Source: Comamonas testosteroni
Lineage (GTDB): Bacteria > Pseudomonadota > Gammaproteobacteria > Burkholderiales > Burkholderiaceae_C
NCBI RefSeq assembly: GCF_030505195.1
Contig: NZ_CP129672.1
Coordinates: forward strand, 2,390,501 to 2,454,500
Length of the DNA stretch: 64,000 nt
Reading direction: 5' to 3'
The notes under the pieces are model-generated. The model did no database searches. It was not told the origin of the DNA and saw nothing but the letters and a program-made list of their open reading frames with translations. The number at the start of each line of letters is the position of its first letter. Position 1 is the stretch's first letter. This document shows, piece after piece, positions 10,284-19,534 of the stretch. The position numbers and the translations under genes are program-made.

Positions 10284-10481
10284 ATGCAGAGGAAGAAGAC
10301 GGCACTGACCGACACCACCCTGAAGGCAATCAAGCCCAGGGACAAGACCTACACCGTCAGCGACGACCGCGGCCTGTATCTGGAGGTATTTCCAACGGGT
10401 GGGATGGTCTGGCGTTGCCGCTACCGTCTACACGGCAAATACGAAAAGCTGACCCTGAATAACAACCCGGCCTGGCATTAG
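10284..10481 (+). pseudogene. P4-type tyrosine recombinase, N-terminal remnant
   Basis: The first 65 residues look like the N-terminal domain (DUF4102 type) of P4-like integrases: LTDTTLKAIKPRDKTYTVSD, then RGLYLEVFPTGG, then WRCRYRLHGKYEKLTL. The frame then stops at 10479-10481. A shift at about 10470 would continue as LALATGRTDA, similar to the family's next segment, after which similarity is lost. The core-binding and catalytic domains with the R-H-R-Y residues are missing, so it is non-functional. ATG 10284 was taken as start; the frame is open from 10257. It marks the left end of the accessory island. Such integrases normally sit next to their att site, and a repeat lies just upstream. 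Confidence 0.72.
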
Positions 10482-10988
10482 CAACCGGACGCACCGACGC
10501 CCTTGGTATTTACATCGAGCGAATGGTTCCGGGTGGATGGTTCAGGGACCCGATTAACTCCACCAAACTTGAACCCGTTGGAGCACCAAAACCTCACCCA
10601 GGGTGGTGCCGCTAGTGCCGTCCGGTTATCCATTGCTTCACTCGCAATTTGTACATTCATGCTCTTGGTTATAGGGATTGAGCAGGTGACGTTCGAGGAT
10701 ATTTTTGAAACAACGCTCTATGTTCCGGTTTTGCCCGCTATGACTTCCGTCTTCTATTTTGATGGCGGCGCGCATCGTGCCATGATGGACAACCCCGATC
10801 GGGAAATCGAAACGGTCAAGCGCCTTCCGACAAGCCTGCGCTCTGTCTCTGTCCGCCGTTGCGCCGAATTCACTCCACCACCTATGAACAGCCTCAACCT
10901 TGCTGCGTGCAGCGAGTTAGGGACCGCCACGTTTTAGGTGAACTACTGGTGCGACCCGCAGTGCTGCATACCGTGCCCGAGGAATCCG
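10482..10988. other. Decayed or unassigned island sequence
   Basis: About 500 bases between the integrase remnant and the next plausible gene. A frame is open from a TTG at 10503 to 10937 and would give 144 residues with one hydrophobic run (SIASLAICTFMLLVIGI), but there is no good start or ribosome binding site and no family is recognised. The composition looks patched together from different sources. I see no RNA gene. Confidence 0.35.
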
Positions 10989-11438: not shown

Positions 11439-11689
11439 CTTCCAACGCCCACCGAGCGCGTCATGCGCAGCACGCAGACAGTGCGCGAAGCCGACTCGTA
11501 CGCTGCTCTCTGATTGCCTGCCTTGCAGGCCAGGAACGGGCGCATTGGTTCGTAGTTGGGCAGGGCGCTGGTGCCGTCTTCACCCACACGGGCGCGGAGG
11601 AGCATCCACGCATTGCGCTCCAATGGCGTCAGCCGCTCATCGAGCAGCAAGGCGAGGGCACGCTCACGTTGTTCATCGGTATGTCGATA
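11435..11689 (-). pseudogene. Fragment resembling an ICE/pathogenicity-island HTH protein (STY4528-like)
   Basis: The frame reads TDEQRERALALLLDERLTPL, then ERNAWMLLRARV, SYE-like NYEPMRPFL and SRTVCVLRMTR. From memory this resembles the helix-turn-helix region of the STY4528 family found in integrative conjugative elements of proteobacteria (RLTPLERNAW is the most telling part). Only about 70 residues remain. Similarity starts where the IS5-type transposase similarity ends (about 11690) and dies out near 11450. It seems to be a scrap of an older conjugative island. The family name is from memory and needs a profile search. Confidence 0.45.
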
Positions 11690-12165
11690 GCGACGGTCGG
11701 TTCAGTTGAGGCGACAATGATTTGCCCGCGCCGGGCCATGCAGCCATGCTGCAGCAGTTGGCTGTCCACGGTCTGGAACAGGGCCGTGACGCCATCGACG
11801 CCCAGGCGCTGCTGGTAGTGCCAGATGGTGTTGCGGCGGGAATGGTGGCACTGCCTTCGAGCAGGCAAAAGCACTGGTAGCTCATGCGATCCAGGAGCTG
11901 GTACTCAGTCTGCTCATCGCTGAGCTTGTACAAGTGCTTCAAGACCAGGGTGCGCACCATGACCTCGGTGGGATACGGTGGGCGTCCGCCCCGGCAGGCG
12001 TCACCACTGGGGCAGCAAGGCGTCGATAGTCTGCGTGAGGTGGGCAAAGTCGATGTGCCGGGCGATGAACTGCAGCGGGTTGCCCAGGGATTCTATTTTG
12101 TGCTTGTGGGCAGCGTAGGCAAACAGATCGGGCTTGATTGCGCTGCGCGAGGGCTTGATGGGCAT
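11690..12165 (-). pseudogene. IS5-family transposase, 5' part with two frameshifts
   Basis: ATG at 12165 opens MPIKPSRSAIKPDLFAYAAHK and runs to a stop after LLPQW near 12003. The next frame continues RGGRPPYPTEVMVRTLVLKH and LSDEQTEYQLLDRMSYQ. A third frame, after one lost base near 11843, reads RRNTIWHYQQRLGVDGVTAL and LLQHGCMARRGQII. This is the conserved N-terminal half of IS5-group DDE transposases (RPPYP, LSDEQ, the R-N-T-I-W box). The catalytic core after the first Asp region is absent, as the sequence changes to ICE-like material near 11690. Dead element. Confidence 0.72.
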
Positions 12166-12713
12166 TGATGGGCTGCCGGGTCAGGATGGGATTGGGGGGT
12201 GAATGCTGGAGTATTTAGAGCTTCCCTATTGATTTGCTTTTACCTTTAGAAAATATTATTGCTTCAAGGTTAAAAATAAGAATTTTCTTATATGCCCTCA
12301 AAAAATAGGTAGGCAGGATCTCTATGGCGATTCCATTCAATTCCGATGCGGCTAACGGTCAGTGAGTACTTGGACGATTTCTACAACGGATATCCGTCCA
12401 TATGCGGATTGGGTGCTTATTCTCGATGGAGAAAAAGGCTTTTATTACACGAAGAACCGTATACCTAATATTTGAGGGTTAAAAGGAAGAGCAAGCTGAA
12501 TCGCGAACTCCATAGGAAACCTCTGCATAAAGAGAATTCACGCGTGATAGAGCAACTTTTAAAAGCCCGTTGTTCATGTCTGGCAGCGAAAATCAATGAC
12601 TTCCCGGTGATTCGAGATGCTTGAATGACTGTGTTGATGCTATGTGGCAGGGGATTTCTGATTTATGCAGAGCTTCCTTAGATGTGCAATATGAAAACTT
12701 CCGTGGCTAACGC
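12166..12713. other. AT-rich gap upstream of the bacteriocin cluster
   Basis: About 550 bases without a supported gene, clearly AT-richer than the chromosome backbone. It should contain the promoter of the downstream cluster, but I cannot choose a convincing -35/-10 pair. It includes a pair of inverted repeats at 12515-12531 and 12662-12677. No ribosome binding site is obvious in the bases before ATG 12714. Confidence 0.5.
12515..12677. repeat. 163-bp segment with inverted-repeat ends (possible MITE or IS remnant)
   Basis: The left end GGAAACCTCTGCATAAA (12515-12531) and right end TTTATGCAGAGCTTCC (12662-12677) form an inverted pair: eleven bases match without a gap, then the outer TTCC matches. 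The CTCTGCATAAA core is typical of termini of IS5-like elements. It may be a small non-autonomous element or what remains of an insertion sequence. No flanking target duplication was recognised. Confidence 0.35.
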
Positions 12714-13865
12714 ATGATCATAGATTTCCAAATATCTCACAAAAATTTCACTGAGCAGCACTACGAAAGAGAGCCTCTCTTGATTAGAGGTGGCTGTATT
12801 ACGCATGGCGTTACTTGGCGTCAAGCGAACCAGCTCTTTGAGCGATGTGATGTGCTCGCGGACTCGTTCAAGCTTGCATTCGATGGAATCGTTCCAAAGG
12901 AAAAATACGTCGAGAGTTATCTGGACGTAGGTAGGCTGCGCCACCGCCTGATTAAGCCTGTTGTGTACGAACTAATGCGTAATGGTGCAACGCTGATCGC
13001 CAACCAGATCAAAGGCGATTCGGTAGTAGATGCACTGGCTAGGCAAATCGGAGCCTTCTCCGGGCAGCAGGTAGTGTCCAGCGCATATGCAGCATTCGGC
13101 AGCCGCGATTCGTTTCGCGCTCATTGGGACACCCGAGATGTCTATGCCATTCAGCTGCTCGGACGCAAGCGCTGGCTCGTGTATCGACCCACCTTCGAGT
13201 GCCCTCTCTATACACAGCAGAGCAAGGAGTACGAGCACGCTTATCCAAAACCGGAGGAGGTCTACATGGACTTCGTGCTGGAGCCAGGCGATGTCTTCTA
13301 TCTACCCCGAGGGTGGTGGCATAACCCCTTGCCTCTGGGTGAAGCGACCTACCACCTTGCCTTTGGCACATTTCCTCCATATGCCATCGACTATTTGTCA
13401 TGGGCAGTTGAGGAGTCTCAACATTTCATTGCCGCTCGCAAGGCTCTTGGCCCCTGGGACCAGAATGAGGAAACAATTAATTCACTGGCCAGGTATTTCT
13501 CGGAGTTCATCTCCAATCCAGAAAACCACCGTCGATTTCAGGATGATTTTTATTCGGGTCTTCGTCAGGATTCATCACTGGCCATAGATATTCTGGGCAA
13601 CCCTGCAATCCAAACTCTGTCCGATGAGCAAAAGCTCCGTGTTGCGACGAACAATCTTCATGGCTTGAATGAGGAATATCTCATTGCCAATGGAGCAAGA
13701 GTTGCGCTTGATGATGTCGGGCTGCCGCTGATGCGGCGCATCGCACATTCACCGGGTACCAGTGTGTCGGAACTTTTGGAAGCACATCCTGAAATTGAGC
13801 CAGGCAGGATTCGATCACTCATCACGGAACTGTGCCGCCAAGATATCTTGGAGCCATGGTTCTAA
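12714..13865 (+). CDS. JmjC/cupin-fold 2-oxoglutarate oxygenase in bacteriocin cluster
   Basis: A 383-residue protein of the bacterial JmjC (cupin_4, RoxA/YcfD-like) family, which uses Fe(II) and 2-oxoglutarate to hydroxylate protein side chains. The iron triad is visible: HWD gives His137 and Asp139, and the distal His203 is in GWWHNPL. The strand QLLGRKRWLVYRP and EPGDVFYLPRGWWH are typical of the fold. The last 60 residues (SVSELLEAHPEI to ILEPWF) look like the winged-helix tail of the RoxA group. It is the first gene of a tight cluster that encodes a microcin-like precursor and its exporter, so the likely substrate is the precursor peptide, or a host protein made resistant. That is inference; known relatives hydroxylate ribosomal proteins. 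Its base composition is AT-richer than the flanking chromosome. Confidence 0.82.
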   Translation: MIIDFQISHKNFTEQHYEREPLLIRGGCITHGVTWRQANQLFERCDVLADSFKLAFDGIVPKEKYVESYLDVGRLRHRLIKPVVYELMRNGATLIANQIKGDSVVDALARQIGAFSGQQVVSSAYAAFGSRDSFRAHWDTRDVYAIQLLGRKRWLVYRPTFECPLYTQQSKEYEHAYPKPEEVYMDFVLEPGDVFYLPRGWWHNPLPLGEATYHLAFGTFPPYAIDYLSWAVEESQHFIAARKALGPWDQNEETINSLARYFSEFISNPENHRRFQDDFYSGLRQDSSLAIDILGNPAIQTLSDEQKLRVATNNLHGLNEEYLIANGARVALDDVGLPLMRRIAHSPGTSVSELLEAHPEIEPGRIRSLITELCRQDILEPWF

Positions 13866-13888
13866 ATTTCATCAACGAAAGGCATCAT

Positions 13889-14350
13889 ATGGGAGAAATA
13901 CCCGAAATCAAAGAGAACTTTCTGTTCAAATTATCCGGATCGGGCATGGGCATCAGTCTTGGGTTGGCATCGATTTTTGTTTTATTTAACGAGAAGCTGT
14001 CATTTTCCAAGGAATGGCTATCCAGAATAGATCTGTCGCTGGCATTTTGCGTTTTACTGTTTTTCGTGAGGTCCATAATCGAATTAAACAAATTCATGCA
14101 GACACTAAAGAAGTTTTCGGAAGATCAGTTGCAGGACTACGTTTTACAAGAACAGCCGGGAATATATCCACTCACCATGTTCAAGAAATCAGCTTCGTTG
14201 ATTTTTTTAATTATGGTGCTTTGCTTCGCAGTCTGGCTGTTGACTATCACGTCCCCCCCTCTCATCTCGGCGGTAGTGGTTTCTTTCGTTCTTATTTCGG
14301 CAGTGACCGAGATTCTTTTAGCCGGAATAATAAAGTCTATAAGGAAATAA
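13889..14350 (+). CDS. Four-helix membrane protein, candidate bacteriocin immunity protein
   Basis: A 153-residue protein from ATG 13889, with GAAAGG about 6 bases upstream; an earlier in-frame ATG at 13856 would overlap the oxygenase stop. It has four hydrophobic segments, around residues 13-32, 48-66, 103-123 and 127-147, and a charged middle loop, with no known domain recognised. It ends one base before the precursor gene starts. In microcin V-like systems the small membrane protein next to the precursor gives self-immunity, so this is the natural candidate. No sequence similarity to known immunity proteins was seen; the call rests on size, topology and position. Confidence 0.6.
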   Translation: MGEIPEIKENFLFKLSGSGMGISLGLASIFVLFNEKLSFSKEWLSRIDLSLAFCVLLFFVRSIIELNKFMQTLKKFSEDQLQDYVLQEQPGIYPLTMFKKSASLIFLIMVLCFAVWLLTITSPPLISAVVVSFVLISAVTEILLAGIIKSIRK

Positions 14351-14351
14351 A

Positions 14352-14681
14352 ATGCGCGATCTTACTATCGTAGAGCTGAAATTGGTCGGGGCCGGCCTTG
14401 ATTCTGATGATCGCGCCCTGTTGGGGTCCGGTGCTGGCGGCGTTACAGGGGCATTGGGCGGGCAAGTCGCCGGCCAGCACATCGGCGGATGGGTCGGTGG
14501 CGCTGTTGGCGCCGGCATTGGTGGGCCTATCGGCGCAGTGGGCGGTGTGATCGGGGGCCGGTGGTTGGGCGGACGCGTGGGTGCAATAACAGGCGGGGCC
14601 GTTGGGACTTGGGTGGGGAGCATGTGGGGCGGATCTGATAAATCTGGCACCAACTACCAAGATGGAAGCAGCTATCAATAA
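14352..14681 (+). CDS. Microcin V-like (class II) bacteriocin precursor
   Basis: A 109-residue secreted peptide precursor. The leader MRDLTIVELKLVGAG closely follows the microcin V leader pattern (MRxLTxxEL...VxGG), with a double-glycine-type site at G-A or A-G, so cleavage should fall after residue 14 or 15. The mature part, about 94 residues, has an acidic start (LDSDDRALL), then a long glycine-zipper stretch with many GxxxG spacings and three GGxxG blocks, and a hydrophilic tail SDKSGTNYQDGSSYQ. There are no cysteines, which excludes lanthipeptide-like or disulfide forms. Such zippers insert into membranes. AAGGA lies 6 bases before the ATG. The genes for leader peptidase/exporter, adaptor and channel follow directly. 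It matches no named microcin that I know. Confidence 0.82.
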   Translation: MRDLTIVELKLVGAGLDSDDRALLGSGAGGVTGALGGQVAGQHIGGWVGGAVGAGIGGPIGAVGGVIGGRWLGGRVGAITGGAVGTWVGSMWGGSDKSGTNYQDGSSYQ

Positions 14682-14703
14682 TCCCAATCAATAGGTGGAC
14701 TGT

Positions 14704-15975
14704 ATGGTGCTGCTGTTCAGGCGTGAGGCTCTCATTGCGAAGGAAGTGCGATGGCTTGGCCACATCGTCATGGTGCGCCCCTTGTCCTTCTCAGTCTTGA
14801 CGTTGCTTTCCATCGCCATCGCAGCCTTGATCGCAGGAGTGCTGTTTTTTGGCACTTACACCAAGCGGACGGCGGTCCACGGCCAATTGCTGCCGGCGAC
14901 AGGCCAGATCAGGGTCGTTTCGCAACAACCTGGGGTCGTGCTGGAGAAGCTTGTGCAGGAAGGGCAGTTGGTTGAAAAAGGCGCTGTTCTCTACAAAATT
15001 TCCAGCGAGCAGTATGGAGAGGATGCTGGCGCGGTCCTGGCCAGCATCAGCCAGAACCTGACGCAAAAACGGGAGTCACTGCTTGGTGAACAGGAGAAAT
15101 CCCGGCAGTTGCATGCTGCTGAGCGCCACACCTTGAGCAGAAAGATCGCAAGCCTGCGCGAAGAACTGGCTGTGCAGGCAGAGCAGCTCAAGAGCCAACA
15201 GCGCCTACTGGCGCTGGCTGACAATGCCATCCAGCGATACCAGGGGTTGCTGGATAAGGGCTATATCTCGCAAGACCAGTTCCAGCAGCGGCAATCGGAA
15301 CAATTGGGCCAAATGCAGGTGCTTCAGCGCTTGCGGCGCGAGCGCACCTCCTTGGAGCAACAGCTGGTAGAGCAAACCAACGAACTGTCAGGGCTGGACA
15401 GCCGCCAGAAGAATCAACTGGCACAAATCGACCGGCAGCTTTCAGCGCTTGCCCAAGAGCTCACCGAGAGCGAGGCGCGGCGGGTGTTCATCATCGCCGC
15501 ACCCGAGGCAGGCGTGGCAACCGCGGTGCTTGCGGAAGTCGGCCATAGCGTCGATGCCCGCTTGCCCCTGCTGCTCATCGTTCCCACGGACTCTGACCTT
15601 GAAGCCGAGCTCTACGTGCCAAGCAGGGCCATGGGCTTTGTCCAGCCTGGCGACCCCGTGAATGTTCGCTACCAAGCCTACCCTTATCAAAAATTTGGGA
15701 TCTATCGGGGCGAGTTAGTTTCCGTGTCTCGCACCAGCATTTCACCCTTCGAATTGTCCAGCCCGGCCAATGTATTCCAGGGTGCTGGCGAAGCGCGAGA
15801 GCCGTTGTATCGGTTGCGCGTCAGGCTAAATAGCCAGGCTGTCACCGCGTACGGCAAGCCGCAAGCGCTTCAGAGTGGCATGCTGCTGGAGGCAGACATT
15901 CTTCAGGAGTCTCGCCGCCTCTACGAGTGGGTGCTTGAGCCGCTGTACAGCATGGCTGGCAGGGTGACGCGGTAG
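14704..15975 (+). CDS. HlyD/CvaA-type membrane fusion protein for bacteriocin export
   Basis: A 423-residue periplasmic adaptor of a type I secretion system. One N-terminal membrane anchor (about residues 21-47, LSFSVLTLLSIAIAALIAGVL) precedes the first half of a lipoyl domain (VVSQQPGVVLEKLVQEGQLV), a long coiled coil of about 150 residues rich in Glu, Gln and Leu, then the second lipoyl half and a beta-barrel domain with PLYRLRVRL near the C-terminus. This order matches CvaA. AGGTGG stands 5 bases before ATG 14704; a GTG at 14695 in the same frame is less likely. It lies 22 bases after the precursor stop and two bases before the exporter gene. It should link the ABC exporter with the TolC-like channel. 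Confidence 0.88.
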   Translation: MVLLFRREALIAKEVRWLGHIVMVRPLSFSVLTLLSIAIAALIAGVLFFGTYTKRTAVHGQLLPATGQIRVVSQQPGVVLEKLVQEGQLVEKGAVLYKISSEQYGEDAGAVLASISQNLTQKRESLLGEQEKSRQLHAAERHTLSRKIASLREELAVQAEQLKSQQRLLALADNAIQRYQGLLDKGYISQDQFQQRQSEQLGQMQVLQRLRRERTSLEQQLVEQTNELSGLDSRQKNQLAQIDRQLSALAQELTESEARRVFIIAAPEAGVATAVLAEVGHSVDARLPLLLIVPTDSDLEAELYVPSRAMGFVQPGDPVNVRYQAYPYQKFGIYRGELVSVSRTSISPFELSSPANVFQGAGEAREPLYRLRVRLNSQAVTAYGKPQALQSGMLLEADILQESRRLYEWVLEPLYSMAGRVTR

Positions 15976-15977
15976 CC

Positions 15978-18122
15978 ATGGTTTCTTTGGATTCGCTGGC
16001 ACTGCGCTGGGGCAAGCATTTGCCGGTCATGTTGCAGACAGAGGCCGCTGAATGCGGCCTGGCCTGCCTTGCGATGGTCGCGAGCTATCACGGCTACAAG
16101 GTAGACGTGACGGAGATGCGCCAGCGCTTCAGCATTTCACTCAAGGGGATGAATCTTGCCCAGGTGGTTCAGGTCGCACACGGCCTTCGCCTGGGCACAC
16201 GCGCGGTACGCCTGGAGCTCGATGAGCTTCAGAACCTGGCAGTCCCCTGCGTGCTGCATTGGAACCTTGACCATTTTGTGACGCTGAAATCCGTCAGTGC
16301 TCGAGGCGTGGTGATACACGATCCGTCGACTGGAGCCCGCCCCGTAAGCTTCGAAGAGCTATCGCGTAGGTTCACCGGCGTGGCTCTGGAGTTGTGGCCA
16401 AACCCAGACTTCGAGAAGAAAGAAGAAAAGCCCAGGGTCAGGTTGCTTGGCTTGACGGGGAAGATCAGCGGATTGGGCCGATCCCTGCTCCAGGTGCTGG
16501 TGATGGGCGTGGCATTGCAGATCGTCGCGCTCGTCGGCCCGTTTCTGCTTCAATGGACCATAGACAATGCGATCATCAGCAACGATCGCCATCTGCTGGC
16601 CACTCTGATTCTGGGGTTCTCCGTCGTGCTGCTAATGCAGGTTCTCATCAGCACCGGCCGGGCCTGGGCGCTGATGCACATGGGCACACTGTTCAGCCTG
16701 CAATGGCGGACCAACGTGTTCAGCCATATGCTGCGCTTGCCCAGCCAGTTCTTCGAGAAGCGCCACCTGGGCGATGTGATCTCCCGCTTTGGGTCCGTCG
16801 ATCAGATCCAGCAAACGCTGACGGCCAGCTTTCTCTCGGTCATTCTGGATGGCCTTATGGCGTTATCCACCCTGGTGCTGATGCTGGCCTACAGCCCCCA
16901 GCTGGCGGCGGTCGTTCTCTGTGCCATGGTGCTCTACGGGCTGATCCGCTGGTCGTGGTACCACCCGCTGCGCAACGCCACGCAAGAGCAGATCGTTCAT
17001 GCCGCTCGCCAGCAAAGCCACTTCCTTGAATCGGTCCGCGGTGTTCAGGCATTGAAGTTGTTTCAAAAGCTGGATATGCGCAGATCCGTCTGGCTAGGCC
17101 TGTTCGTAGATCAGATCAATGCGGGCCTGAAGTCCCAGAAGCTGCAACTGTTCTACGCGCAAGCCAATGCGGTGCTGTTCGGCGCCGAGAACCTGCTGGT
17201 GGTCTGGTTGGGGGCCACCATGGTGATGGATGGGCACTTCAGCGTCGGCATGTTCATGGCCTTCTACTCCTACAAATCCCAGTTCGGCAGCCGCGTGGGA
17301 AGCCTTATCGATCGTCTCTTCGACCTGCGCATGCTGCAACTGCACAGCGAGAGATTGGCCGACATCGTGCTGCATCCACCCGAGGAAGAGTCTCACGCGC
17401 TCGTTGCCCACGAATGCAGTGGCCGGGTGGATATCGAAGTGCGGGCGGTAGCCTATCGCTATGGGGACCAGGAGCCCTGGATTCTGGACGACCTGAGCTT
17501 CAGCATCTCTGAAGGCGATTCGGTGGCAATCATCGGGCCTTCGGGCTGTGGCAAAAGCACCTTGCTCAAGGTGCTGCTGGGCATGCTACCAGTGGCGCGG
17601 GGGAGCATTCGCGTCGCAGGCCATGAGCTCAGCGGGGCCAGCCTGTCTACGCTTCGTGAGCTCTCCGGTTGCGTGATGCAGGACGATGCGCTGTTTGCCG
17701 GAAGCCTTGCCGAGAACATTTGCTTCTTCGATTGTCAATCTGATAAGCCATGGATGCAGCAGTGCGCGCGCATCGCCGGGATACATGCCGATATCGAGCG
17801 CATGCCCATGGGTTACAGCACCTTGGTTGGCGACATGGGCACGGTGCTTTCCGGTGGGCAAAAGCAGCGGATCCTGCTGGCGCGCGCGCTGTACAAGAAG
17901 CCCAGAATTCTATTCCTGGACGAGGCAACAAGCCACCTCGACGTGGAGGCCGAGCGGCAGATCAGCACTGCAATCCAAGCCCTCGATATCACCCGGATCA
18001 TGATCGCCCATCGTCCGGAAACGATTGCCTGTGCAGACCGGGTCATCGAACTCGGCCATGGCCGGGTGGTCAATGATGTTCGGGTGCGGCCATTGCGGCA
18101 GCAGCGCCCACCGGGAGTCTGA
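15978..18122 (+). CDS. Peptidase-containing ABC exporter (C39, CvaB-type)
   Basis: A 714-residue inner-membrane protein that both cleaves double-glycine leaders and exports the peptide. The N-terminal C39 domain keeps its catalytic residues: Cys26 (in TEAAECGLACLAM), His99 (in WNLDHFVTL) and Asp115 (in IHDP), with the same spacing that I recall for CvaB. A six-helix membrane domain follows, about residues 160-440. The nucleotide-binding domain carries Walker A GPSGCGKST (about 519), signature LSGGQKQR, Walker B ILFLDEA and the switch histidine in IAHR. All are intact, so the transporter should work. It lies two bases after the adaptor and two before the TolC gene. The leader of the peptide at 14352 is the obvious substrate. 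Confidence 0.93.
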   Translation: MVSLDSLALRWGKHLPVMLQTEAAECGLACLAMVASYHGYKVDVTEMRQRFSISLKGMNLAQVVQVAHGLRLGTRAVRLELDELQNLAVPCVLHWNLDHFVTLKSVSARGVVIHDPSTGARPVSFEELSRRFTGVALELWPNPDFEKKEEKPRVRLLGLTGKISGLGRSLLQVLVMGVALQIVALVGPFLLQWTIDNAIISNDRHLLATLILGFSVVLLMQVLISTGRAWALMHMGTLFSLQWRTNVFSHMLRLPSQFFEKRHLGDVISRFGSVDQIQQTLTASFLSVILDGLMALSTLVLMLAYSPQLAAVVLCAMVLYGLIRWSWYHPLRNATQEQIVHAARQQSHFLESVRGVQALKLFQKLDMRRSVWLGLFVDQINAGLKSQKLQLFYAQANAVLFGAENLLVVWLGATMVMDGHFSVGMFMAFYSYKSQFGSRVGSLIDRLFDLRMLQLHSERLADIVLHPPEEESHALVAHECSGRVDIEVRAVAYRYGDQEPWILDDLSFSISEGDSVAIIGPSGCGKSTLLKVLLGMLPVARGSIRVAGHELSGASLSTLRELSGCVMQDDALFAGSLAENICFFDCQSDKPWMQQCARIAGIHADIERMPMGYSTLVGDMGTVLSGGQKQRILLARALYKKPRILFLDEATSHLDVEAERQISTAIQALDITRIMIAHRPETIACADRVIELGHGRVVNDVRVRPLRQQRPPGV

Positions 18123-18124
18123 CT

Positions 18125-19534
18125 GTGCACAGGCTACGTCTCGCCGCTTGCTTTGCTGGTGCCGCCCTGCTCAAACCCGCATTCGCCATGCCAGCTTTCG
18201 ACGCCTTCGCCACAGAAAGCCTTGTCGCCACCCCGGCTATGGTTTCCTCGTCTGTGGAAGTGGGCTTCTGCCCTGCCGGCATGCCGCCGCAACCGCTGAC
18301 TTTGCACGAAGCCATCACCCGTATCCTGTGTCATGACCCCACCATCCGCCATGCCAGGTCCACCGCACAAATGCGGGCAGCCCAGGTGGGTCAGCGCCAG
18401 TCCACATATCTGCCCCGTCTGGATGGACGGGTGGGCCAGTCGGCAAACCACACGGCAACCCGTTTTGGAGACGACTTGGGTTCGACCAGCAACAATAGCC
18501 GGATGCGTGCGGGCAACCTCAGCTTCAGTTGGGTGCTCTTCGACTTTGGCCGTCGAGAAGCGGCGTTGGAGGCTTCACACCAAATGCTCGCAGCGGCAAA
18601 TTCCGATCAAAACGCGACCATCCAACGTGCATTTCTCGATGCCGCGCATCTCTACTTTGCCGCGCGAGCGAGCAACCAAAGGCTTGCCGCTGCCCAGCAG
18701 GTCATGGACCTAGCCAAAGACAACTACGCCGCCGCAGATGAGAAGTACAAAGCCGGCGCGGCAGCCTTGTCCGATCGCCTGCGGGCACAGACAGCCTATA
18801 CCCAGGCCAGTTTGCGCGTCTCACGTGAGAGGGGTGCTCTGTCCAGTGCTTTGGGCTCAATGGCACTGCGTATGGGGTTGCCTGCACTGACGGCCATAAA
18901 CATCGATGAACGCATCGTTGCTTTTCCCGCATTGGACTTCATGTCTGAAGTTGACGAGCTCATCCGCATTGCGCGCGGCCAACATCCAAGCCTGATTGCA
19001 GCACAGGCGCGCGCGAAGGCTGCCTTGGCTGCAACGCAAGAGGCTCGCGCGATGGCTCGGCCATCGATTGCACTAACAAGCAATCTCGGGCTCTCAAATA
19101 CCTTTGGGCATGGCCCAAACAGCCAGCGCCAGGACATGAACATCGGACTGCAACTGAGCATCCCTTTGTTCTCGGGGCTTGAGCAGACCTATCAGATCCG
19201 CGAGGCCCAAGCCCAGGCTGCAGCCCACGTGGCCGAGTTGGACACCGTGCGCCTGCGCGTTTCGGAGGATGTCTTGACGCAGTACAACAGCCTGTGTACG
19301 GAAAAAGCCAACCTGGTACACACCTCAGCGCTCGTTGAGCAGTCCAAGCAAGCCATGGATATCGTGCAAGGCCGCTATCGGTCTGGCGTGGGCAGCATGA
19401 CAGAAGTTCTAAACACCATGGAGACCTATGCCAGCGTTCAGGAGCAGCATATCGGTGCAATGGCCAATTGGCAGGTCTCGCGTGTGGCGCTGGCCGCCCA
19501 CTTGGGGCTATTAGTTTTCTGGGGCTTGGACTAA
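18125..19534 (+). CDS. TolC-family outer membrane channel for bacteriocin export
   Basis: A 469-residue outer membrane efflux protein. It starts with GTG at 18125, two bases after the exporter stop. A signal peptide (LRLAACFAGAALLKPAFA) is followed by two repeats of the outer membrane factor domain with long alanine- and glutamine-rich helices; SLRVSRERGAL and the terminal repeat QGRYRSGVGSMTEVLNTMETY are typical. The presence of a dedicated channel makes the system self-contained, unlike E. coli microcin V, which borrows the chromosomal TolC. It is the last gene of the cluster. The stop is followed by 360 bases before the converging yidC terminator region. Confidence 0.9.
   Translation: MHRLRLAACFAGAALLKPAFAMPAFDAFATESLVATPAMVSSSVEVGFCPAGMPPQPLTLHEAITRILCHDPTIRHARSTAQMRAAQVGQRQSTYLPRLDGRVGQSANHTATRFGDDLGSTSNNSRMRAGNLSFSWVLFDFGRREAALEASHQMLAAANSDQNATIQRAFLDAAHLYFAARASNQRLAAAQQVMDLAKDNYAAADEKYKAGAAALSDRLRAQTAYTQASLRVSRERGALSSALGSMALRMGLPALTAINIDERIVAFPALDFMSEVDELIRIARGQHPSLIAAQARAKAALAATQEARAMARPSIALTSNLGLSNTFGHGPNSQRQDMNIGLQLSIPLFSGLEQTYQIREAQAQAAAHVAELDTVRLRVSEDVLTQYNSLCTEKANLVHTSALVEQSKQAMDIVQGRYRSGVGSMTEVLNTMETYASVQEQHIGAMANWQVSRVALAAHLGLLVFWGLD

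Follow-up and report, generated by a model that had tools for sequence, protein, structure and literature searches.

A JmjC oxygenase clade paired with a portable tyrosine-bearing tail motif suggests oxidative tailoring of class II-type microcins

Class II microcins are described, in the accessible part of a 2026 paper, as peptides that remain unmodified except for disulfides or a C-terminal siderophore (PMC13174018). Two published systems place a cupin-like gene beside the peptide gene. The mcaABCD locus of Mcc17978 from Acinetobacter baumannii ATCC 17978 encodes, according to the available portion of its description, the microcin, a cupin-like protein, an HlyD protein and an exporter, and is induced by low iron; its authors proposed mcaB as the immunity gene and left modification of the peptide as a question (PMC10333792). 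For Mcc1229 from Escherichia coli, the accessible text reports that mctA, mctB and mctC are required for activity (mctC with complementation) and that mctDE confers immunity, and its authors suggest that mctC may process or modify the peptide (PMC8853679). In addition, excerpts of two further papers describe JmjC/cupin-like enzymes, BipG, PbsQ and BpmG, that hydroxylate ornithine in precursor peptides (PMC12707348, PMC12257519). Here we describe a six-gene operon of Comamonas testosteroni (RefSeq assembly GCF_030505195.1, contig NZ_CP129672.1, forward-strand positions 2,390,501 to 2,454,500; this stretch of 64,000 nucleotides is the window, to which the coordinates refer unless a locus is named) that begins with a gene for a JmjC oxygenase. 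What is new is a JmjC clade, present across many genera, that is paired with a portable tail motif on dissimilar peptide cores. Judging from sequence, the operon would make, modify and export a class II-type microcin, the JmjC enzyme hydroxylating its C-terminal GxxY repeats before cleavage and export by the C39 exporter, a reading to which we assign a probability of roughly 0.7.

The six genes form one operon on the forward strand (12714-19534; Table 1) with intergenic gaps of 23, 1, 22, 2 and 2 bases, exactly as the first-pass annotation had placed them when it spoke of consecutive genes 1 to 23 bases apart. The catalytic Cys26, His99 and Asp115 that it read in the exporter are all retained, along with Q20, the Walker A sequence GPSGCGKS and the LSGGQ signature, such that both components typical of class II microcin export, a catalytic C39-ABC protein and an HlyD adaptor, are present together with a small precursor bearing a leader of the double-glycine type, MRDLTIVELKLVGA(G). 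The leader is that of a class II microcin; it ends in VGAG and is hence of the 'GA' and not the 'GG' type; its homologue from Delftia tsuruhatensis ends in VGGG. The mature peptide has a computed mass of 8813.5 Da if cut after residue 14 or 8756.5 Da if cut after residue 15. The likeness to microcin V that had been noted extends, as it does for classes IIa and IIb, to the leader type and to export through C39-ABC, HlyD and TolC components, but stops at the peptide, which has no cysteine and for which microcin V is a poor model. Class IIa peptides are typified by disulfide cysteines, absent from the 109-residue window precursor, and class IIb peptides by a C-terminal Gly/Ser repeat, going by the available part of the source (PMC13174018), which the window tail DKSGTNYQDGSSYQ does not match by eye. 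Genes for siderophore attachment, as in class IIb, were not found by Pfam among the six operon genes, to which this search was confined. By its sequence the window peptide thus fits neither class IIa, for lack of cysteine, nor, by tail and operon, class IIb, and the locus adds to these known systems an oxygenase and its own outer-membrane channel. It is a real class II-type microcin system, with a predicted antibacterial activity and a candidate immunity function.

Compared with Mcc17978, the window shares the GA-ending leader, the cupin-like gene, HlyD and the C39-type exporter; it differs in that mcaB was proposed to provide immunity, and the accessible text makes no mention of the motif (PMC10333792). 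The sequence of the ATCC 17978 locus or of mcaB was not found in the sequence collections searched. A plasmid of A. baumannii, pMC23.1, has an mca-like gene order, a JmjC of the window clade and a peptide ending in GNDYCEDGGNY, and we infer that mcaB and Mcc17978 carry the clade enzyme and the motif. The mctA-E locus of Mcc1229 likewise combines a peptide and its ABC transporter with a protein that has a cupin domain, and a matching gene set is present on pHUSEC41-3. In the pHUSEC41-3 locus, unlike the window, no C39 domain is read in the transporter, the peptide has neither a double-glycine leader nor a GxxY tail, and the cupin protein is only about 25% identical. The Mcc1229 type, marked by a transporter without C39 and a peptide with a Cys-rich end and no GG leader, does not include the window. 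The statement of the first-pass annotation that no microcin locus had been described with such an oxygenase gene fails in the letter, as the cupin-like mcaB and mctC are both published. A literature search that left most subscription journals outside recovered no account, in the text accessible to it, of the motif or of oxidation of class II microcins, and the words 'cupin' and 'hydroxyl' do not occur in the accessible text of PMC11494933 and PMC10233263.

The product of the first gene adopts a JmjC fold in an AlphaFold2 model built on a 25-sequence alignment (mean pLDDT 92.8, pTM 0.87), and its nearest relatives by sequence and, with Foldseek, by fold are NO66, MINA53 and YcfD. All 25 aligned sequences have H137, D139, H203 and K152; we take the first three to be the HxD...H iron ligands and, by analogy with FIH, K152 to be the basic residue that binds 2-oxoglutarate. 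The fold, the HxD...H triad and the basic residue expected of a JmjC hydroxylase are all found in the sequence and model, and the high-confidence model predicts an intact hydroxylase of the ribosomal-oxygenase type. Its modelled C-terminal part comprises strands at residues 307-310, 322-325 and 328-331 followed by three helices. The window enzyme shares the fold, the iron site and the winged helix with YcfD/RoxA, NO66 and MINA53, and differs in its genomic context, its possession of H214 and the separateness of the RoxA-like branch. A ROXA-like winged helix was detected by Pfam in 7 of the 25 members; all seven RoxA-like rows have T at the position of H214, and in the JmjC tree they form their own branch (support 97), which does not include the window protein. 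The same genome carries a second, separate gene that we label RoxA-like on account of its similarity and its near-universal presence in the family sample. On the grounds of this branching, the genome's own RoxA-like gene and the microcin gene context, the identification of the window enzyme as a plain RoxA was rejected.

The best 80 of 283 JmjC relatives from a scan of species genomes, combined with the window and the loci L033 and L035, provided 83 JmjC loci, with flanks of up to 8 kb on each side for the scanned ones. The JmjC tree had 85 rows and was obtained by a short search with no bootstrap, after leaving out rows below 300 residues, duplicates from the C39-anchored set described below, L030_1 and L122_0. 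The window enzyme falls in a clade (SH-aLRT 98) with proteins from Pseudomonas, Moraxella, Neisseria, Acinetobacter, Marinomonas, Photorhabdus and others, to which 59 loci were assigned, most of them from their row in the tree, and by similarity where a locus lacked a tree row because its sequence was too short or identical. The leader peptides of this clade, dissimilar in their cores, have at their ends a common repeat in several versions, G-[TSN]-[ND]-Y (the strict motif). The window tail contains GTNYQDGSSYQ, and comparable ends are seen in D. tsuruhatensis (L044, DKSGANYQDGSNYQK) and in L045 (GTDYNNAAGTNYN), L084 (GTNYCNSSGSNYCH), L076 (GTDYADGTDY) and L088 (GNDYCRDGGNY). Among same-strand small open reading frames (ORFs) within 4.5 kb of the JmjC gene, the strict motif occurs at 48 of the 59 clade loci (65 ORFs, 167,462 residues), as against a single one of them (1/59) when the opposite strand is read (1 ORF, 283,263 residues) and one of the 24 JmjC loci outside the clade. 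Read by eye, the remaining 11 clade loci show looser forms (GIDY, GVDY, GLDY, GSGY, GSHY, GNYY, GGHY, GLNY, GDDY). Motif labels on the tree, set by hand, cover 53 of the 56 clade rows, and two of the three rows left over, L062 and L079, carry the strict motif.

The motif peptides, 73 in number from 57 loci and including a few likely chance ORFs, contain 120 tetrads, of which GTNY (31), GTDY (15), GSNY (10), GNDY (8) and GNNY (8) are the most frequent, and 45 of the peptides have two repeats. Since 96 of the 120 tetrads have N or D at position 3, in a count where G and Y were fixed by the search pattern, both Asn/Asp and Tyr stay candidates for the modified residue; Asn/Asp as the sole invariant site was rejected on the same figure. 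When G and Y are not both required, the C-terminal 25 residues of the clade's leader peptides contain [TSN][ND]Y 52 times, 51 of them after a G, and G[TSN][ND] 55 times, 51 of them before a Y. Clustering the 69 motif peptides with cores of at least 20 residues yields 20 core clusters, the largest with 27 peptides, and in Bibersteinia (L086) three peptides with different cores share a nearly identical tail. The motif is C-terminal in most peptides, while a form SG[NS][ND]YGD stands directly after the leader in L069, L089, L093 and four paralogous peptides of Moraxella catarrhalis (L094). Beside a clade JmjC gene in Herbaspirillum (L056, 7193-7990) lies a 262-residue protein without a recognised leader that ends in FADGTDYHAH, and in another Herbaspirillum locus (L052, 3-377) a protein adjoining the JmjC gene, its start lost at the contig end, ends in QQDGSNYADGTAYQ; these two may be cargo of another kind on which the clade enzyme acts. 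That the motif shifts its place and its cargo while the JmjC gene stays is best read as the motif being the substrate of the enzyme. At 10372-10726 and 12246-12593 of the Neisseria gonorrhoeae locus L035 there are a precursor whose leader part and motif tail are in different frames and a second leader peptide, with a Cys-rich end and no motif.

To complement the loci anchored on JmjC, 58 were chosen by their C39 exporter instead, 20 of the 25 places listed for the class, 19 of 21 for the Pseudomonas family and 19 of 20 for the Moraxellaceae; 41 of them have no JmjC gene, and some of those with one repeat loci of the species-genome scan. A single regular expression for leaders, which misses real precursors and admits some random ORFs, retrieved 64 leader peptides from 48 clade loci (39 with the strict motif, 12 with a looser GxxY, 13 with none) and 21 from 16 of the 41 exporter loci without JmjC (0 strict, 2 GxxY, 19 none), a difference with a Fisher probability of 2e-7 that ignores relatedness. 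The expression varied slightly between the successive peptide analyses; in an earlier count, 9 strict and 2 loose forms were present among 17 leader peptides with JmjC nearby, compared with 0 strict and 2 loose among 26 without. A chance origin of GxxY in glycine-rich ORFs was rejected in view of these exporter loci and the opposite-strand control. On a FastTree phylogeny of 92 exporters, 37 have both a JmjC gene of any type and the strict motif, 15 JmjC only, one the motif only and 39 neither; if only clade JmjC genes are counted the figures become 37, 5, 1 and 49. The sole motif-only exporter locus is L139, where the ORF has no leader. A test of independent pairs restricted to clade JmjC, run second, after the version with all JmjC types had given p 0.125, comprised 6 pairs, on average 5.6 changing in the same direction and 0 in the opposite one (median p 0.03).

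Leader peptides are also found at 10 of the 24 JmjC loci outside the clade (L097, L098, L100, L102, L105, L109, L112, L117, L120 and L121), and all 15 contain DGD at their end when read by eye (e.g. GEDGDGS, SSEDGDG, NDGDGY); the regular expression labels 10 of them DGDG, 4 GxxY and 1 none. Hosts of the non-clade enzymes include Methylomonas, Variovorax, some Acinetobacter, Achromobacter, Janthinobacterium and Pandoraea, and the JmjC rows paired with DGD tails fall outside the GxNY clade, although they form no single supported clade (2 changes). With clade enzymes beside GxxY tails and other JmjC enzymes beside DGD tails, the type of tail goes with the type of enzyme.

The recurrence of one oxygenase clade beside otherwise dissimilar peptides that share a tyrosine-bearing motif suggests that the enzyme chemically decorates this motif. 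The JmjC protein would bind the precursor, possibly by way of the winged helix at its C-terminus and of the leader, and use Fe(II), O2 and 2-oxoglutarate to hydroxylate GTNY and GSSY of the window peptide, either on the Asn/Asp before the Tyr or on the Tyr itself. The C39 exporter would then remove the leader, presumably after the modification, and together with HlyD and the TolC-type channel secrete the peptide, with the small membrane protein probably protecting the producer. Tailoring is favored by the intact modelled JmjC domain, the conserved gene set of the clade, the association of motif and enzyme, the portability of the motif and the precedents of BipG/BpmG and MctC, and there is good support for a microcin operon that includes a tailoring oxygenase. 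The biphenomycin enzymes BipG and BpmG resemble the window enzyme, as proposed here, in that a JmjC protein acts on a ribosomal precursor peptide, and differ in that they act on ornithine in the pathway of a small macrocyclic peptide and not on a C39-exported microcin. The first-pass annotation had made its idea of a hydroxylated microcin depend on the co-occurrence of these genes elsewhere; JmjC, leader peptide and C39 exporter do occur together in many genera, and the idea now has a concrete predicted substrate in the GxxY tail.

Several points weigh against this interpretation. A second leader peptide of N. gonorrhoeae (L035), plausibly a real precursor, has a Cys-rich end without the motif, and 13 of the 64 clade leader peptides have no GxxY in the parts checked, several of them resembling random or out-of-frame ORFs. 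The loci behind the locus and tetrad counts had already been read when the motif was defined, and the independent-pairs test over all JmjC types, run first, was not significant (n=7, 4.1 in the same direction, 0 opposite, p 0.125). HlyD, C39 or both are missing in 12 of the 59 clade loci, the flank being incomplete on one side in eight, and L055, L063, L065 and L095 have no transporter at the thresholds used despite 8 kb on both sides. The precedent of MctC is weakened by its identity of only about 25% and by a transporter and peptide of another type. Lastly, and as the chief objection, mcaB of Mcc17978 alone protected cells, as the accessible part of its description reports, which is unexpected for a pure tailoring role (PMC10333792).

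That experiment, with plasmid-borne mcaB in a mutant of A. baumannii ATCC 17978 without the microcin locus (PMC10333792, accessible text), is what one would expect if the JmjC protein were instead, or also, an immunity factor that binds the conserved tail of incoming microcin or that, in the producer, oxidises either the peptide or its target, with the motif serving as a recognition tag. Such binding would produce the same association of tail and enzyme. Binding alone, though, would not need the iron-ligand residues and K152 that are invariant in the 25 sequences. A small membrane-type ORF lies within 500 bases of the motif peptide in the window and in 21 of 56 other loci, in a crude count that gives 0 of 57 for the opposite strand and detects none in the other 35. 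In Mcc1229, going by the available text, it is mctDE that gives immunity and the cupin gene that is needed for activity (PMC8853679). We regard immunity as an unlikely role for the enzyme, though a serious rival. The clade and its portable motif predict a third kind of class II microcin modification, and the tail motif provides a signature by which such peptides can be sought in sequences; if the prediction is true, screens that express peptide and exporter alone would miss active products. It also turns mcaB, a published gene of unsettled role, into a direct test of tailoring, immunity or both.

A bolder extension, which we consider distinctly doubtful, is that class II microcins with JmjC enzymes form a third class of their own, an oxidative one, whose hydroxylated tandem G-x-[ND]-Y tails would act as iron-binding siderophore mimics and allow entry through catecholate-siderophore receptors such as Fiu/PiuA with no attached siderophore. 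The chemistry could be conversion of Tyr to a catechol or formation of beta-hydroxy-Asn/Asp, and the non-clade relatives could do something similar on EDGDG tails; this reading agrees with the Fiu/PiuA receptors but is speculative. Against such mimicry, ring hydroxylation is not known as a habit of JmjC enzymes, and upstream regions show little or no enrichment of Fur boxes, with at least 13 of 19 matches in 28 of 57 clade loci (19 expected from shuffles) and at least 14 of 19 in 9 of 57 (4.9 expected). General Fur control of the clade loci was rejected for want of clear enrichment.

It is very unlikely that the tail is just a shared uptake domain for one type of receptor, with the JmjC protein modifying something else or being a linked passenger. 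Uptake of class II microcins is ascribed to their C-terminal part (PMC13174018) and Fiu/PiuA are known as receptors of Mcc17978 (PMC10333792), in both cases according to the accessible portions; the strict motif, however, is seen in none of the 21 leader peptides from exporter loci that lack JmjC, is N-terminal in some Moraxella peptides, is attached to a protein with no recognised leader beside JmjC, and is replaced by another tail beside other JmjC relatives. We give next to no credence to the enzyme being a duplicate of the ribosomal oxygenase RoxA/YcfD that acts on a ribosomal protein and is unrelated to the peptide, since the common fold and the ROXA-like winged helix of 7 of 25 relatives are set against the separate RoxA-like branch, the RoxA-like gene kept by the same genome, the T that RoxA-like rows have in place of H214 and a clade that travels with microcin genes.

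Table 1. Components of the microcin operon and elements of its precursor in the window
Feature	Coordinates	Strand	Basis
JmjC-fold Fe(II)/2-oxoglutarate oxygenase, RoxA/NO66-like, C-terminal winged helix, 383 aa	12714..13865	+	JmjC_2 PF08007 E 7e-27; AlphaFold2 model; Foldseek
Small membrane protein, candidate immunity protein, 153 aa, 3 hydrophobic segments	13889..14350	+	Crude hydropathy count; function predicted
Microcin precursor, 109 aa, glycine-rich, no Cys	14352..14681	+	ORF; L044 homologue 65% identical
Leader peptide MRDLTIVELKLVGA, probably cut after residue 14 or 15	14352..14393	+	Leader pattern match; cleavage predicted from C39 domain
Tail repeat GTNY-QD-GSSY, residues 99-108, proposed JmjC substrate	14646..14675	+	Association of motif with JmjC clade; modification predicted
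HlyD-family periplasmic adaptor	14704..15975 (ATG 14704; alternative GTG start 14695)	+	HlyD_3 PF13437 E 2e-15
C39 peptidase-ABC exporter, 714 aa	15978..18122	+	Peptidase_C39 PF03412 E 8e-33; ABC_membrane PF00664 E 1e-39; ABC_tran PF00005 E 5e-31
TolC-type outer-membrane channel	18125..19534	+	OEP PF02321 E 1e-53

No Pfam family reached the cut-off for the membrane protein or the precursor, and the TIGR01843 match of the HlyD adaptor stays below its cut-off. Among 53 genomes of the genus sample, the JmjC gene was recovered at E 1e-50 or better in two, its own and that of D. tsuruhatensis NBRC 16741 (G219, the source of L044). The same two alone have near-full-length matches in the family sample (n=299), the others listed being at the RoxA level (below 50 bits), and in the class sample (n=369) no strong match was found beyond its own genome, with one partial match of 26% besides. 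The D. tsuruhatensis locus has all six genes in the same order between different flanking ORFs, with identities of 81% for JmjC, 54% for the membrane protein, 65% for the precursor, 88% for HlyD, 91% for C39 and 80% for TolC; the greatest divergence is thus in the precursor and membrane protein, as expected for a toxin-immunity pair. Across the clade loci, HlyD is encoded in the flanks of 48 of 59, C39 in 49 and both in 47, and this conservation, along with the recurrent six-gene order in D. tsuruhatensis, marks the operon as more than a chance assemblage. A TolC-type gene scoring above 60 bits is present in the flanks of only the window and L044 (2/59); L046, L048, L050 and L095 match more weakly, at 44-56 bits. 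The G+C content of 51% for the JmjC gene and 41% for the membrane protein gene, as against 61-62% in the wider flanks, suggests horizontal acquisition. A DUF772 transposase fragment lies just upstream of the operon (11673-12047, -; Pfam E 2e-13), consistent with acquisition via mobile DNA.

More distantly, the best 80 of the 283 relatives come from Pseudomonas, Thiopseudomonas, Marinobacter, Herbaspirillum, Moraxella, Psychrobacter, Acinetobacter, Neisseria, Marinomonas, Oceanospirillum, Vreelandella, Xenorhabdus, Photorhabdus, Bibersteinia, Methylomonas and others. The viral contigs scanned contain no JmjC relative, and the window precursor has no match in the plasmid collection. In that collection, A. 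baumannii and N. gonorrhoeae have full-length JmjC homologues of 38-39% identity, and the homologue on the M. catarrhalis plasmid pLQ510, at 42%, is partial. This plasmid bears the McbABCI system (PMC2761928), which resembles the window in its homologous HlyD and C39 genes and an upstream JmjC gene, and differs in that McbC has no motif and that its JmjC gene is split into two ORFs (L034, 39-1120); the word 'cupin' is absent from the accessible text of that paper. On a plasmid of A. baumannii KAB08 (L182, 6001-8187) an ISAba10 transposase gene interrupts the JmjC gene. A plasmid of Pantoea ananatis (L042, 1275-7768) carries a cupin-domain gene beside YcaO, TfuA, ThiF-type and MFS genes, its product being a distant JmjC relative in a different peptide-modification context.

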